From Bacteroidales bacterium (GTDB lineage: Bacteria; Bacteroidota; Bacteroidia; Bacteroidales; UBA932), in assembly GCA_024398095.1 (NCBI GenBank), contig JAKSJK010000017.1, positions 1 through 32,469 of the forward strand: 32,469 nucleotides of DNA, written 5' to 3'. Positions 27,485 to 32,469 of the stretch are shown piece after piece. The position numbers and the translations under genes are program-made. Positions within the stretch are counted from its first letter, which is position 1, and every line of letters starts with the position of its first letter. The notes beneath the pieces were generated by a model. That model made no database searches. It saw nothing but the letters and a program-made list of their open reading frames with translations, and was not told the DNA's origin.

Positions 27485-27562
27485 AGTTCGGGGCATCGCA
27501 GCGTCCTCGCTCCGCGAAGCATAGGGATATGCTCCGCGAGGCCATCTGTGATGCCCCGAACT
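27485..27562. repeat. 78-bp imperfect inverted repeat with nested hairpin
   Basis: Outer arms AGTTCGGGGCATCGCAG (27485-27501) and CTGTGATGCCCCGAACT (27546-27562) pair at 16 of 17 positions. Inside, AGCATA-ggga-TATGCT forms a second stem flanked by GC-rich CCTCGC/GCGAGG-type partners. There is no T-run on either side, so it is not a standard terminator. It lies between the MATE promoter and the RHS scrap and may be a dispersed palindromic element or a recombination scar. Confidence 0.75.
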
Positions 27563-27603
27563 CTCATTGCTGTATTTCCAGAAGCTCACATCAACATAAT
27601 TGG

Positions 27604-27740
27604 GCTGAACACGAACGGGCCTATGTATTCGTATCCGTTGAGTGATGAATCCATGACGCCACACCTGTTTCCATCCGAAAGATAGGAATAATTCACAGAG
27701 CTTTCGAGAGTCTCCACTCCACATAACATGGCATCGTCGT
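27604..27740 (-). pseudogene. RHS core fragment, frameshifted remnant
   Basis: Bases 27604-27703 match 30291-30390 of the intact RHS module at 96 of 100 positions without gaps. In the RHS frame it reads SSVNYSYLSDGNRCGVMDSS and then LNGYEYIGPFVF before a stop. Just upstream PCYVE is encoded in a different frame: the segment joining it is 17 bases where the intact copy has 12, a 5-base length change. It has neither a start nor a tip, and is the leftover of a third RHS module. Confidence 0.88.
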
Positions 27741-27779
27741 GAAGTATAGTGGATGCTATAATCGAGGTTCAGGCTCACT

Positions 27780-28628
27780 CTATAAACAAAGACACCGAAC
27801 AAAACGAATCTCATTCACTTGCGGAGTCATATCAATAAAATGCCTTGAAAAAGAATCTAAAGCTGCCAAATATTCCCAGCAAAAATCTTCGGCCCTAAAA
27901 TTATCTACATCGATTTCTGAAAATACCCGAGAAGAATCATCTCGTAAATAGATTTCAGTGAAGTTGGGGACCTCTATTATTTCAATGCCATTAGCCTTGG
28001 AGTATTTCATATGCACATTAAATGGAATGGTACAGCTACCATCTGTCTTAACCCATAAGCTATTTCGAAACGATTTTGAGATCTCAGCTATACCTGTTTG
28101 GAAAGTCCCATTTAATTCAAAGTCCATGAGGTCTAGAATTACCCTGCCACTTGAGTTTAAAAAAACCGGGGAATATCTATATGTCAATCCCCAAGGCGCA
28201 CTCTCTCCGCGTTTTCTCTCATTGATTCGGTCTATCACTGTACCATGCATGACGAAACCAGCCTTATTCTTACTGTCATATAGATAGAATTGATTCTGAG
28301 ATGAAACGATATTTACGCAGCCTGTCAATAAAACATCTCTAAGCGGTTGGTGTGGCACATCACGACCAAGTTTTACCCCACAATCGTAATATATCTCCAT
28401 CCCATCATACGACTCCATATCTAATACAAAGTTGTATAAGTCGCTAACATTGCTTGGATATGCATGATAATCTTCGAAATAAGATTGTACTATCATCCAA
28501 TATGGACAATCAATCCGTTGATGTCTTATTGATTTCCGAATGACCCATTGATTTCCCGTGCATGATAACATAATGCACGCAATAAAAACCAGAATAGCCT
28601 TGTACAATATGCAGTTAGAGTATCTCAT
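27780..28628 (-). CDS. Putative lipoprotein of unknown function in the RHS accessory region
   Basis: 282 residues from the ATG at 28628, which puts a lipoprotein signal at the N-terminus (KAILVFIACIMLSC, lipid cysteine at residue 23). An in-frame ATG 14 codons upstream would bury that signal. The mature part has no family I recognise. It begins with a possible helical stretch (YWMIVQSYFEDYHAYPSNVS), typical of small substrate-binding or 'pilin-like' N-termini, and the rest is beta-rich with several acidic patches. Base composition is clearly AT-richer than the core genes nearby. It has its own -7 box at 28757-28764 and sits just upstream of the RHS remnant, so it may be cargo, possibly an immunity or surface protein, of a lost RHS module. 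Confidence 0.75.
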   Translation of the reverse strand: MRYSNCILYKAILVFIACIMLSCTGNQWVIRKSIRHQRIDCPYWMIVQSYFEDYHAYPSNVSDLYNFVLDMESYDGMEIYYDCGVKLGRDVPHQPLRDVLLTGCVNIVSSQNQFYLYDSKNKAGFVMHGTVIDRINERKRGESAPWGLTYRYSPVFLNSSGRVILDLMDFELNGTFQTGIAEISKSFRNSLWVKTDGSCTIPFNVHMKYSKANGIEIIEVPNFTEIYLRDDSSRVFSEIDVDNFRAEDFCWEYLAALDSFSRHFIDMTPQVNEIRFVRCLCL

Positions 28629-28756
28629 CGATTGATTTTCCCAAAGTTTGTTCCAAATAACTTGTTGCAAGAATTCAAGAATGCTTGAGCTTCAATAATT
28701 TCCCTAAAATAGGCTTGAAAAGATAGGAAAGAGTTAATAGATTAGTGTTCGAAGGA

Positions 28757-28764
28757 CAAATATA
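28757..28764 (-). promoter_or_regulatory. Candidate -7 box for the 27780-28628 lipoprotein gene
   Basis: Minus-strand TATATTTG, 128 bases upstream of the chosen start. It lies immediately after the two hairpins that follow the previous gene, an arrangement of terminator then promoter. Confidence 0.45.
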
Positions 28765-28768
28765 GAAA

Positions 28769-28815
28769 TCTCTCCGTGAATTTCACAGAGAATCCCAAGC
28801 GTCCGTTCTGCGGAC
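28769..28815 (-). terminator. Two short hairpins after the 28816 gene, possible terminator
   Basis: GTCCG-CAGAA-CGGAC directly follows the stop codon (28801-28815). TCTCTGTGA-aat-TCACGGAGAGA (28769-28791, with a small bulge) comes next, ending in ATTTCTAT. The T-run is weak, so termination is only likely. Confidence 0.4.
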
Positions 28816-29289
28816 TCAGTGAGACATCACTAAACTTTTCACACGATGGACGATACCGCTTCCAGTATCGTAAAACAGTCTCTCAGTACGAATGCCGAGA
28901 GAGTCACAGACTTTGGTAAAATCATCTTTTAAATACGGCCCATAACCTTGATCAGAACGTTTGTCTATCAACCAATAGTAATCTGAATCAAGAGAGCCTG
29001 GGAATACTGATGGGCAATTATATAAACCACAATTATAACGGCCTCCGGGATTCTGCATTACGAGAATTACATCCCTGTCGTAAACTATTCTCTTTATTTC
29101 AGGAGGAATATCAGGTTTAGGCTTAGAAACTGTAGAGAAATAACAATTCAAGTCACTTAGGATATGTCGATTTTCTGGTACATAATAATAGCCCTTCCCT
29201 AAATTATATTTTTCTTGATTACATAAAGAAACACAGCATAACACGCATACAAGAAGCATACATTTATGTGTCAGTCCTATTTTAGCCAT
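28816..29289 (-). CDS. Small exported protein, DUF3997-like; candidate immunity protein for the RHS tip
   Basis: 157 residues. The N-terminus (CMLLVCVLCCVSLCNQ) is a hydrophobic export signal, with a weak lipobox at VSLC. The mature part reads YNLGKGYYYVPENRHILSDL, IPPEIKRIVYDRDVILVMQN, DYYWLIDKRSDQGYGPYLKD and DFTKVCDSLGI. This order (a 'GYYYV' start, a '.I.PP.I..Y.YD..fI' strand, then 'YWIIDK....YGPL....F...'), resembles the DUF3997 family of small lipoproteins; the assignment is from memory and tentative. Its ATG lies inside the end of the RHS gene (13-base overlap), the usual coupling of a toxin with its immunity gene. Function is inferred from position only. Confidence 0.7.
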   Translation of the reverse strand: MAKIGLTHKCMLLVCVLCCVSLCNQEKYNLGKGYYYVPENRHILSDLNCYFSTVSKPKPDIPPEIKRIVYDRDVILVMQNPGGRYNCGLYNCPSVFPGSLDSDYYWLIDKRSDQGYGPYLKDDFTKVCDSLGIRTERLFYDTGSGIVHRVKSLVMSH

Positions 29290-30524
29290 GGCACTAAAGG
29301 TTTTAACTTCGCTGTCCCATAGAAATGAATATCGTATGGCGTTCCTTTTCCAGCATACATAGACCCAATTATAGTTTCAAAATTTCTTGGCCAATTAAGA
29401 ATATTTGCCCAACTTTTCATATCGAAATTATATGTATCTTCAAATGTACGGACACCATGATCAGGATACCTGCGAAATGAAATATTTCCGTATACAAGTC
29501 CATCCTTTAAACTGAAATTATAGAGCAAATTAAAACAATACGTCTTCCCTACGTACTTCTCTCCCCACGAACGAAAGGCAGATAAATTAATTTTTCTCAG
29601 ATCAACATATAACCTCTGTCCATTACCGGATTTATACCACTCATTTGCCTCATCCAAAGTCAAATAGCCGTCCCAATCTGGTCTTGTTGGAAGAGAAGAA
29701 TGATTCCGGCTAAAATTCATAAATGCGTCATCATTAACCAAACCAGCTAAACCCATATCTAGTTGCATAACCTGCGCAGAGGTCATTGAAATATTATAAT
29801 CAGCCCTTGGAACAATTATCGCATCCCCCTGTAGTCCACTGTCAGTGGTACCAATCAAATTTCCATATTCATCATAGATAGGATTTCTCCCATCCGGGTC
29901 TACATAATTCACCGGGTCGCCTGCACAGAAGGACAGAGGGTTGACTGTGTGGTTCTTCTCGAAGAGCGGGTCAGGGGTTGTCCACATCGGGATTACCGGG
30001 CTGTACATGCGGGCGCCGTAGTCGTAGAGGTTCACGGAATCAAAGTTCTGGAACTCCTTGCCGTTGAAACCATGAGGATTATCCCCGGACGAGGGCAAAG
30101 AGGTGTTCCACAAACTTCCGTAAGGCGTATAGTCATAGAATTTCACCTCGCCGGCGGCATCCCTCGCACGGACGCTGCCGAGGTAGTCCATTGACCAGTA
30201 TTCCGGGACTAGCCCATCCTGACCCGGCACACGAACAAAGCGGCCGCAAGACATGTCGGCGGAGGACAAAGTCAGATTCTCCCCGTCCCGGCTGTACACG
30301 AACGGTCCTATGTATTCGTATCCGTTGAGTGATGAATCCATGACGCCACACTTGTTTCCATCCGAAAGATAGGAATAATTCACAGAACTTACAGGGGTTT
30401 CAACATAACACGGCAGATTCAGGATATTATATGAAATTGACCTGTCCTCCCGGCCGCTATAGGTCTGCCGCCCCATGGCATCATAGATGAGATCCGGAAA
30501 TGATTTAGCGTTTAATCCAACCAC
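29277..30524 (-). CDS. 5'-truncated RHS-repeat protein C-terminus with variable tip (module 2)
   Basis: Frame open from 30536; a GTG at 30524 gives 415 residues. It begins within the RHS shell (IYDAMGRQTY, SYNILNLPCYVETP), continues through the repeat-associated core (DYLGSVRARDAAGEVKFYDY, FNGKEFQNFDSVNLYDYGAR, MYSPVIPMWTTPDP, NPLSFCAGDPVNYVDPDGR at ~213) and then changes to a variable tip of about 200 residues. The tip includes LTLDEANEWYKSGNGQRLYV, CFNLLYNFSLKDGLVYGNIS and AGKGTPYDIHFYGTAKLK, blocks I recall from other Bacteroidota RHS proteins of unknown activity. The signal peptide, the bulk of the YD repeats and the upstream shell are all missing. Core codons are GC-richer than the tip. 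It overlaps the preceding lipoprotein gene by 20 bases, and may be a displaced donor cassette without its own expression. Confidence 0.85.
   Translation of the reverse strand: MVGLNAKSFPDLIYDAMGRQTYSGREDRSISYNILNLPCYVETPVSSVNYSYLSDGNKCGVMDSSLNGYEYIGPFVYSRDGENLTLSSADMSCGRFVRVPGQDGLVPEYWSMDYLGSVRARDAAGEVKFYDYTPYGSLWNTSLPSSGDNPHGFNGKEFQNFDSVNLYDYGARMYSPVIPMWTTPDPLFEKNHTVNPLSFCAGDPVNYVDPDGRNPIYDEYGNLIGTTDSGLQGDAIIVPRADYNISMTSAQVMQLDMGLAGLVNDDAFMNFSRNHSSLPTRPDWDGYLTLDEANEWYKSGNGQRLYVDLRKINLSAFRSWGEKYVGKTYCFNLLYNFSLKDGLVYGNISFRRYPDHGVRTFEDTYNFDMKSWANILNWPRNFETIIGSMYAGKGTPYDIHFYGTAKLKPLVPWLK
29891..29958 (-). repeat. RHS core direct repeat, partner of 32402-32469
   Basis: 68 bp coding NHTVNPLSFCAGDPVNY and the DPDGR that closes the RHS core. 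It matches 32402-32469 at 60 of 68 positions without gaps. The repeat probably continues past the window edge at the other copy. Such core repeats are the sites where tips can be exchanged by recombination. Confidence 0.9.
30291..30390 (-). repeat. RHS core direct repeat, partner of 27604-27703
   Basis: The intact copy of the 100-bp segment repeated at 27604-27703, with four substitutions and no gap. It encodes part of the RHS shell around YLSDGNKCGVMDSSLNGYEY. Confidence 0.9.
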
Positions 30525-31794
30525 TGTATAAGAAAATCAGATTTTCTTGACCATCTATGCTCACAATATATACATTAACCTTCAACATATCTAACGACTC
30601 TTCTTCTACCTCTAATACAAAGTCAGCTATTGATGTTTGCTGATAAACGTGTCCAATGATGTCAATAGCAGATGAGTCCCTATATACGACATCGTCTTTA
30701 CATACCCTATACAGTGGACGATTTGGTAAAACATGTTTTTCAACACCAAAATTTGTCATCGTCCCGACCGCATTGTCCTCAACAATACCCATATCTGGAA
30801 AATAACGCAACAAATACGAATACTCTGCGCCACCAGAGCCAAATATATTGCGCGTCCATCCCGTCAGGCCATTGACGGTAACCTTAAACCAATCGCAACC
30901 TTCAATGTCATCAACAGAAAAAAATGTGAAATAAATACAATCTGAAATATCCACCGAAATATACTCCCCAGACTCTTCTGGGACGAGATATAGTTTCAAC
31001 ATTGGATTCTTGGCATTGATATAATAATCACAATCAAGAAATCCACCTATTTTGCTCTTATCTACCCATCCACGATATAAAAAAAACAATTCACTTTTTC
31101 CGATTGAATCTTGACTTTCGTCAACAAGGAACACATTTGCATTAAACCTGTTCTCGCTGGAAGATATAACGAAAAAAACAAAAGAAAACTGATTGATTCC
31201 AGATATATTTCCGATTATATCGGCAGAAACTGAATCTTTATAGACAGCCATGGGGCCATGAGGGTACAACAGGACAGGGCTAAAAGGCCTTGGTCGAATG
31301 CCATCGGCTGTGAATCCATCAAAACCCAATAACTCAACCTTGGAAGTACGATGATACGAATACGTCCTATACGAGCCACACCTGTTTTTTCCATACTTCC
31401 TGCGACCAGACAGCGGCTTCCACAACTTGCTACCCGATACTATAGATTCTAATGTATCAAATTGAGAGCCGAAAATCCTACATTTAATTCCATCCAGATA
31501 GCCAACGCCCAAACATCGTGATGGAATCGTACGTCCCCCTCCCATACTGCCAGGAAAACAGACTATTATTGTAGTATCAACGTTACGCTTATAATACTCA
31601 TCATGGTGCCAACGGCTAATATCAAAACATATATCGACTTGTTTAAGTTTTGAATTACCATATTTTGAAAAATCCAGCACAATACTATCCAACTGAGGAT
31701 CTTTAAAAAGGGGGGAACCGAATGATGAACGAATATTGCAAGAAACAATGGATGTCAACAACAAAGGCAAGAAAAATTTAGGTATCATTTCCAT
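30505..31794 (-). CDS. SH3-repeat-like lipoprotein, candidate immunity protein for the RHS tip at the window edge
   Basis: 429 residues from 31794, or 427 from the ATG at 31788. The latter forms an ATGA overlap with the RHS stop and is equally likely. The signal IPKFFLPLLLTSIVSC ends in a good lipobox. Three SH3b-like repeats follow: residues ~184-245 (VYKDSVSADIIGNISG then FFLYRGWVDKS), ~266-318 (LYLVPEESGEYISV then WFKVTVNGLTGWTRN) and ~369-428 (VYRDSSAIDIIGHVYQ then LIFLYSGWIKR). The first and third are clearly related. The N-terminal ~170 residues are not recognised. SH3b repeats normally bind peptidoglycan or proteins; this could block a secreted toxin in the periplasm, which is inference. 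Base composition is AT-rich. Confidence 0.75.
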   Translation of the reverse strand: MEMIPKFFLPLLLTSIVSCNIRSSFGSPLFKDPQLDSIVLDFSKYGNSKLKQVDICFDISRWHHDEYYKRNVDTTIIVCFPGSMGGGRTIPSRCLGVGYLDGIKCRIFGSQFDTLESIVSGSKLWKPLSGRRKYGKNRCGSYRTYSYHRTSKVELLGFDGFTADGIRPRPFSPVLLYPHGPMAVYKDSVSADIIGNISGINQFSFVFFVISSSENRFNANVFLVDESQDSIGKSELFFLYRGWVDKSKIGGFLDCDYYINAKNPMLKLYLVPEESGEYISVDISDCIYFTFFSVDDIEGCDWFKVTVNGLTGWTRNIFGSGGAEYSYLLRYFPDMGIVEDNAVGTMTNFGVEKHVLPNRPLYRVCKDDVVYRDSSAIDIIGHVYQQTSIADFVLEVEEESLDMLKVNVYIVSIDGQENLIFLYSGWIKR

Positions 31795-32469
31795 GGCCTA
31801 CTAACTATTTTGGGGGTTGGAATACGCGATTTGTTAATTGCATATTTTCGTCCACTGAAAGGGAAAAAAACAATTGAAGTTACTCCAGATCGTATATATT
31901 CAGAAACATCATTATTATAATAAGGAGATTCGCACCAATCGCATGTTCCACTGCCAATGTAATGTCCTTTAGAATCAAATGAGCTAGCATAATAGAAATC
32001 GTAGCCCATCGACTCCAATTCAGCCTTCTCATTATCAAGTTCATCCGAATGAGAATGCATTTTCCAGACAGTCTTATTTAATGGATCACTCACGCCGCTT
32101 CTTTTCTTGTTTGTCACTAAAGCGTACTCTCTATCATTCAAATACAACCCCCACTCACTTTGAAAGAACACACTCGCCGCAAAATAAAAAACATTCTCAA
32201 TATCTATTCTACACACATCTTTCGGGGCTCTGCCTCCATTCACAAGTGATGGTAAAATATTCGTATCCCGCACTTTTAAAAACTTTTGTTCTGAATATGA
32301 ATTAGTCGATGAGTAAGCATAAAGTCTGTCAAACGGTTCTTCCTTGTGTTCCTCAATAAAAACAATCGCTCCTGTATCATCAACACTATACCAATCCCTC
32401 CCATCTGGATCGAAATAATTCACCGGGTCACCTGCACAGAAGGACAGCGGATTGACTGTGTGATTCTTC
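31785..32469 (-). CDS. RHS-repeat protein C-terminus with JAB/MPN-metallopeptidase-like tip (partial, 5' end outside window)
   Basis: The frame runs open from the window edge (32469) to a TGA at 31785, 227 residues visible. The first ~24 residues are RHS core (NHTVNPLSFCAGDPVNYFDP DGR, shown with a break); the remaining ~203 are the tip. The tip has FFQSEWGLYLNDREYALVTN, then VWKMHSHSDELDNEKAEL. A glutamate in a beta strand, followed ~40 residues later by H-S-H, is the pattern of the JAB/MPN (JAMM) zinc peptidase fold, found in several polymorphic-toxin and RHS proteins. The canonical S-x(2)-D downstream of the histidines is not clear, so the assignment is moderate. Its stop overlaps the SH3-repeat lipoprotein start. 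Confidence 0.75.
   Translation of the reverse strand, partial: KNHTVNPLSFCAGDPVNYFDPDGRDWYSVDDTGAIVFIEEHKEEPFDRLYAYSSTNSYSEQKFLKVRDTNILPSLVNGGRAPKDVCRIDIENVFYFAASVFFQSEWGLYLNDREYALVTNKKRSGVSDPLNKTVWKMHSHSDELDNEKAELESMGYDFYYASSFDSKGHYIGSGTCDWCESPYYNNDVSEYIRSGVTSIVFFPFSGRKYAINKSRIPTPKIVSRPWK
32402..32469 (-). repeat. RHS core direct repeat at the window edge, partner of 29891-29958
   Basis: Same 68-bp core segment as 29891-29958 with 8 differences, ending at the last base of the window. It marks the end of the conserved core of the next RHS module. Confidence 0.9.

Follow-up and report, generated by a model that had tools for sequence, protein, structure and literature searches.

We became interested in the right end of a 32,469-nucleotide (nt) stretch of DNA from a member of the Bacteroidales (lineage UBA932), where pieces of RHS genes are found together with the genes of candidate immunity proteins. 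This stretch, termed the window, is the entire contig JAKSJK010000017.1 (C59) of the 2.45-Mb assembly GCA_024398095.1 (G000), which is 82% complete. On the minus strand and read from right to left, the locus contains the end of an RHS core, a first C-terminal tip (CT1) and its following gene (Imm1), a 615-nt core piece with a second tip (CT2) and following gene (Imm2), a further gene referred to as gene 3, a 131-nt core scrap, and the MatE and upp genes (Table 1). The name upp, like manC below, is a tentative label.

Table 1. RHS-related features at the right end of the window. ORF, open reading frame; aa, amino acids.
Feature	Position	Strand	Evidence or remark
RHS core piece 1, last 72 nt	32398..32469	-	cut by contig end; 89% to core piece 2
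ORF of module 1 (rhs1)	31785-32468	-	5' end open at contig edge
Tip 1 (CT1), HSH motif, Tox-JAB-1-resembling	31785..32397	-	related tips on long rhs ORFs; match to P0122
Imm1 (429 aa), candidate immunity protein with lipobox-like signal	30505..31794	-	10-nt overlap with CT1 stop; distant relative in L108 array
RHS core piece 2, displaced, shell-less	29887..30501	-	93% DNA identity to C117 core over 614 nt; TIGR03696 60.4 bits
ORF of module 2 (rhs2)	29277-30524	-	GTG start
Tip 2 (CT2), predicted colicin-M-like fold	29277..29886	-	structure model
Imm2, candidate immunity protein (DUF3997), exported	28816..29289	-	PF13162 25.7 bits (cut-off 25); relatives behind CT2-family tips
Gene 3, lipoprotein-like, possibly immunity gene of a lost tip	27780..28670	-	distant relative behind displaced tip in L101; C128 copy
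Promoter-like sequence ahead of gene 3	28734..28768	-	86% over 35 nt to C117 rhs operon
Tipless RHS core scrap	27603..27733	-	91% to C117 core

The two core pieces, which match at 89% across their final 72 nt, carry the terminal motifs FDPDGR and VDPDGR, with the boundary located at 32398 and 29887. Beyond this boundary they lead into tips that are unrelated, the best local alignment between CT1 and CT2 containing 13 identities in 42 positions, which bears out what a first-pass annotation, made from the letters alone, had described as a common DPDGR boundary followed by unrelated tips. A step in guanine–cytosine (GC) content coincides with the core/tip boundary. Core piece 2 has a GC content of 53.3% and bases 1-27400 of the contig one of 53.6%, compared to 37.2% in CT2, 37.5% in CT1, 38.5% in Imm1, 37.1% in Imm2 and 37.6% in gene 3. 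The start of Imm1 overlaps the stop of rhs1 by 10 nt and that of Imm2 the stop of rhs2 by 13 nt, while the ORF of module 2 extends by 20 nt into the end of Imm1. The annotation had given the overlaps with the following genes as 4-13 bases, which holds as to their existence with the measured lengths replacing that range, whereas its description of these genes as small does not apply to Imm1 with its 429 aa. Module 2 begins mid-shell, as had been noticed, at the equivalent of residue 1018 of the 1424-residue full-length protein described below, and is devoid of a shell, an export signal and a normal start. The third RHS fragment listed in the annotation is also found; this tipless scrap, which corresponds to residues 37-79 of the query core, is out of frame within the long ORF assigned to MatE. 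Gene 3, counted there as a continuation of the series, encodes a lipoprotein-like product but sits after module 2 and before the scrap, with a promoter-like sequence of its own.

A full-length rhs gene with the same core, as anticipated in the first-pass annotation, is located on contig C117 of the assembly. It encodes 1424 aa and adjoins a partner gene of 1012 aa, both of which open with signal-peptide-like segments, and it is the only full-length rhs of class A that was found in the assembly, with no second shell. At the DNA level, core piece 2 and the core of C117 are 93% identical across 614 nt (E 2.3e-264), which together with the GC step at the boundary places the anatomy of the module beyond chance. 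The two sequences differ at 43 of 606 aligned nt, with 26 codons silently altered and 13 changed in their amino acid. These differences are clustered, since the identical run of 150 nt was reached in 0 of 10000 shuffles. Such a pattern would be expected from exchange or conversion within the core and may have arisen in this way, with uneven selection as alternative. The promoter-like sequence TATATTTG ... GAACACTAAT ahead of gene 3 is also common to the C117 rhs operon (L010 ~14106), where it reads TATATTTA. A variant form of it is found in the flank of another contig, C128 (L011 ~5291).

On the basis of these features we assign the locus, with a probability of about 0.85, as a displaced array of rhs C-terminal (rhs-CT)/immunity modules. 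Such an array is a known kind of system, found here in a genus of the Bacteroidales. It would comprise one or two tip-immunity modules, each preceded by an RHS core fragment and stored apart from the shell presumed to export it, and a tipless immunity-type gene with a core scrap stored alongside. Homologous recombination in the common core would place a stored tip together with its immunity gene onto the full-length shell or, in an alternative outcome, shunt the old tip aside.

Among metagenomic relatives, tips exchange on a near-constant core. The proteins P0003 and P0004 are identical at 145 of 146 core residues and carry unrelated tips, and P0004 shares with C117 its entire tip (205/205 residues) and 142 of 146 core residues. 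Conversely, the CT1 relatives P0122 and P0123 have the same tip (133/133 residues, all that P0123 contains) on cores agreeing at 74 of 99 positions. The 415-aa module matches 24 of 61 genomes, this genome counted, and the C117 protein 144 of 400 genomes of the genus at E 0.001, again with this genome included and with at most two candidates scored per genome. For comparison we fetched 24 loci of the genus, which were chosen for their RHS matches and are thus not a random sample. Two or more cores are present in 17 of them. Defining as displaced a core that is preceded by less than 300 aa of ORF and is not at a contig edge, we find 28 displaced cores (including the window) that keep the boundary. 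Their starts are scattered between positions 2 and 149 of the 191 positions of the model, with 21 at position 20 or beyond, and their fixed end is partly due to selection, because only cores reaching the boundary were counted. In ten more core fragments, which include the window scrap, the boundary is lacking; the frameshifted core of L112 is counted as two fragments, one in each group. A tip family with an HExxH motif, a tentative name like HSH, is found on a long gene in L050 and on displaced cores in L043 and L108, which places one and the same tip family on long genes in some genomes and on short ones in others. A scan of named genomes retrieved 2 loci with 40% and 29% identity. The orphan store for tip swapping proposed in the first-pass annotation is thus supported in its anatomy, its shared core, the tip variation in metagenomes and the like arrays in related genomes, whereas swapping in this strain would be a deduction from these. 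The findings extend the displaced-tip model to a Bacteroidales genus and provide concrete sequence cases of tip exchange.

Two further features of the fetched loci concern the arrays themselves. In L108 (1037-7056) and L109 (6606-9867), a tip family is repeated within one array, at 51% and 74% identity, with other modules in between. In L043 (4451-6373), a single open frame fuses a stretch that by eye appears transposase-like to an RHS core and tip.

Part of the array recurs in the same assembly. Contig C128 (L011 5304-7041) carries window positions 27831-29509 (1679 nt) at 100% identity and 61 nt of CT2, and it retains Imm2 as a whole and 280 of the 296 residues of gene 3 at 100%. No RHS core was found beside this copy, which looks like an orphan immunity copy. 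Orphan immunity genes and acquired defence between bacteria have been studied in Bacteroidales (PMC12247911 and PMC10470768), reportedly for effectors of type VI secretion systems (T6SS); comparably, the C128 copy has an undamaged Imm2 and most of gene 3 next to a broken tip. The model of the T6SS sheath (PF05943) found no match in the assembly, of which 82% is covered, and among 14 control genomes E. coli gave the only match, so that a sheath of the Bacteroidetes type may escape it. On its right, the C128 copy runs into the start of an ORF at the contig end, presumably transposase-like as judged by eye, whose sequence occurs once in the bin.

Several observations weigh against the assignment as a displaced array. 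The C128 copy is missing 248 nt inside CT2 and its frame is broken, hence modules also decay. The contig ends inside core piece 1, which hides its position relative to a full-length gene, and the neighbours of C117 differ from those of the array, with a gene that appears acyltransferase-like at C117 and MatE and upp in the window. The values of dN (0.028) and dS (0.265), the nonsynonymous and synonymous distances (NG86) between core piece 2 and C117, cover the whole divergence from C117 and not the time since displacement. An empty site was not found because the upp neighbourhood is not syntenic across 15 fetched loci, where upp stands alone in 10, is adjoined by MatE in one (L088), by manC in three and by RHS cores in one (L086). 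Tip exchange was seen at the protein level on short metagenomic contigs and not between named strains. Finally, recombination in this strain, expression, toxicity and immunity are putative.

The exact position of the contig end bears on the placement of module 1. Over the last 55 bases of the window (32415-32469), which reach to the boundary, the sequence is exactly that of the C117 core, and the two diverge at the next base. The same length is encountered in contigs C112 and C13, which carry a second class of core (class B), whose first 55 bases are exactly common and which match at 93% over 583 nt before leading into different tips; no third contig for this branch was found in the bin. Since an overlap of exactly 55 appears in two independent cases, we ascribe it to an assembly graph with k=55, a value that we take to be the default top k of metaSPAdes. 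It follows that CT1 sits on a core whose last 55 bases match C117. The contig end marks an assembly branch point at which a single core sequence continues into either of two tips, present either at two loci of one genome or in two strains, and contig ends at core/tip boundaries could serve to read tip variation from metagenome assemblies.

By a refinement of our assignment whose chances we place a little short of even, module 1 would be the tip of a second full-length rhs with a shell near-identical to that of C117, which was collapsed by the assembler, and only module 2 and the scrap would be displaced. This would explain why the window stops exactly where it becomes identical to the C117 core and why no other contig of the bin contains a shell or a second left branch for class A (matches to E 1). 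It is also in line with the succession of a long rhs ORF (a core preceded by at least 700 aa) and displaced cores in 8 of the 24 loci (L044, L045, L050, L101, L109, L112, L113 and L114). However, the identity covers 55 nt only, and arrays without a full-length rhs are found on a whole contig of 9.6 kb in G002 (L086) and in a 14-kb stretch of G039 that starts at a contig end (L043). A second alternative regards the locus as a decaying relic, composed of fragments left by old exchanges and without present use. The tipless scrap, the disruption of CT2 in C128 and the ten core fragments without boundary, including the window scrap and half of the frameshifted L112 core, would all agree with decay. 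Yet the ORF of module 2 is intact and that of module 1 shows no interruption up to the contig edge, the frame of core piece 2 has stayed open over 600 nt, most of its differences being synonymous, and C128 carries its copy at 100% identity across 1679 nt, which is so probably recent; a relic is thus unlikely. Still less probable is a mixture of strains carrying CT1 and the C117 tip as alternatives, with the branch point reflecting population-level variation, since despite the same 55-nt branch point and the variation on one core in P0003 and P0004, the different downstream flanks (MatE/upp and the acyltransferase-like gene) show that the two are not simple alleles of one locus.

Within the displaced array, the tips offer some indication of function. 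Tips related to CT1 are carried by long rhs ORFs of 2262 aa in L102, 1533 aa in L104 and 913 aa in L107, and the HSH tip family encompasses long ORFs in L102-L105 and L113 and a contig-edge member in L106. CT1 shares 39% identity with P0122 over 96% and has no match in Pfam; in a search of 300 genomes of the genus, 48 matched, many over the core end only. When compared by eye with the NxxxE/HxH residues of Tox-JAB-1, CT1 contains the HSH and the E but has an F in place of the N, and its structure model is unusable, with a predicted local distance difference test (pLDDT) score of 35.5. For CT2, the model predicts a colicin-M-like fold. CT2 of the window does not fit the catalytic DXYDX5HR motif of colicin M, with no HR at that spacing; DxY is found in all 33 aligned sequences, followed at the fourth position by D in 22, N in 6 (window included) and G in 5, as counted by eye. 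CT2 has no Pfam match up to E 1. A link to ColM by sequence was rejected, as a profile of the tip (A4, 9 sequences) retrieved none of the ColM chains at E values up to 10, and the relationship is structural only. Judging from the fold of CT2 and the N-terminus of Imm2, CT2 most likely targets a precursor of the cell wall in the envelope, in the manner of colicin M, and Imm2 would be the exported immunity protein.

Imm1 and Imm2 are candidate immunity proteins by their position directly after the tips. Imm2 barely exceeds the threshold of the DUF3997 family (PF13162), and its relatives directly follow a tip of the CT2 family in L047 and, in L048, what remains of one; the search for its homologues returned its own cluster only. 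Imm1 has distant similarity (27.8%, E 5e-6) to part of the rhs array of L108 and has a lipobox-like signal but no match in Pfam or NCBIfam up to E 1. A distant relative of gene 3 (22.6%, E 0.001) follows a displaced tip in L101, and gene 3 itself may have been the immunity partner of a tip since lost. Behind 48 tips of the sampled loci we found 45 genes, of which 44 have a hydrophobic, export-type stretch near the N-terminus, by a measure of hydropathy that was set with the sequences already in view and with some of the genes being mutually related. In the controls, such an N-terminus is present in 59 of 141 ORFs from these loci with lengths of 100-450 aa, spurious ORFs being included, and in 42 of 103 following ORFs located more than 3 kb from any core. 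A strict lipobox pattern is found in 13 of the 45 genes, and we therefore do not call all of them lipoproteins. These N-termini suggest an attack of RHS proteins on the cell envelope. We tentatively propose, as a reading that could well prove wrong, that the RHS tip store of the genus is almost wholly directed at the envelope, with Sec-exported shells, interchangeable tips and, for nearly every tip, an exported or membrane-anchored immunity protein. The tips in question would be those with the colicin-M-like fold, the HSH/JAB-like and HExxH tips, and tips that look transpeptidase-like by eye. If true, the delivery route would end in the periplasm, unlike that of the cytosolic nuclease tips of classical Rhs proteins.

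Related arrangements are described in earlier studies. In the displaced rhs tips of enterobacteria (Jackson 2009, PMC2935791), cores have scattered starts and a fixed end. As in our locus, these are partial, near-identical cores of varying length with dissimilar tips of low GC content, some cores being tipless, whereas the present case concerns Bacteroidales, the array is not seen directly behind a full-length gene and the N-termini are of the export type. In the orphan rhs-CT of Salmonella (Koskiniemi 2014, PMC3967940), a 522-bp region is 95% identical to the main gene, compared to 614 bp at 93% here, and recombination and inhibition, which we infer, are backed there by evidence. The order of toxin and immunity gene and the organization in cassette arrays are shared with polymorphic toxins (Zhang 2012, PMC3482391), where Tox-JAB-1 is found on RHS proteins of Bacteroidetes with the lipoprotein Imm65 as partner. 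According to that study, Imm65 is the only lipoprotein-like immunity protein of the collection, with some secreted or transmembrane ones listed, in contrast to the hydrophobic N-termini in 44 of 45 following genes observed here. With the colicin M family (Ghequire 2018, PMC5821083), our system has in common the predicted fold of CT2 and a membrane-associated immunity protein; it differs by the lack of a sequence-level match and of DXYDX5HR, although degenerate motifs are reported in that study, and a colicin M homologue with an immunity gene has been found by structure (PMC11148199). The TANFOR polymorphic toxins of Bacteroidetes (PMC7073777) also have a downstream immunity gene but differ from RHS in their N-terminal domain, and displaced arrays are not mentioned in the available portion of that work.

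Two observations concern the flank of the array. A palindrome resembling repetitive extragenic palindromic elements, GAGCATATYCCTATGCTTCGCG, is located at window positions 27513-27534. With 20 copies in the assembly, some beside several rhs loci, site-specific recombination at this sequence was rejected as an rhs-specific process. In L086 (2525-3941), from another species of the genus, two shell-less displaced cores directly adjoin upp, and the array of the window is also near upp.

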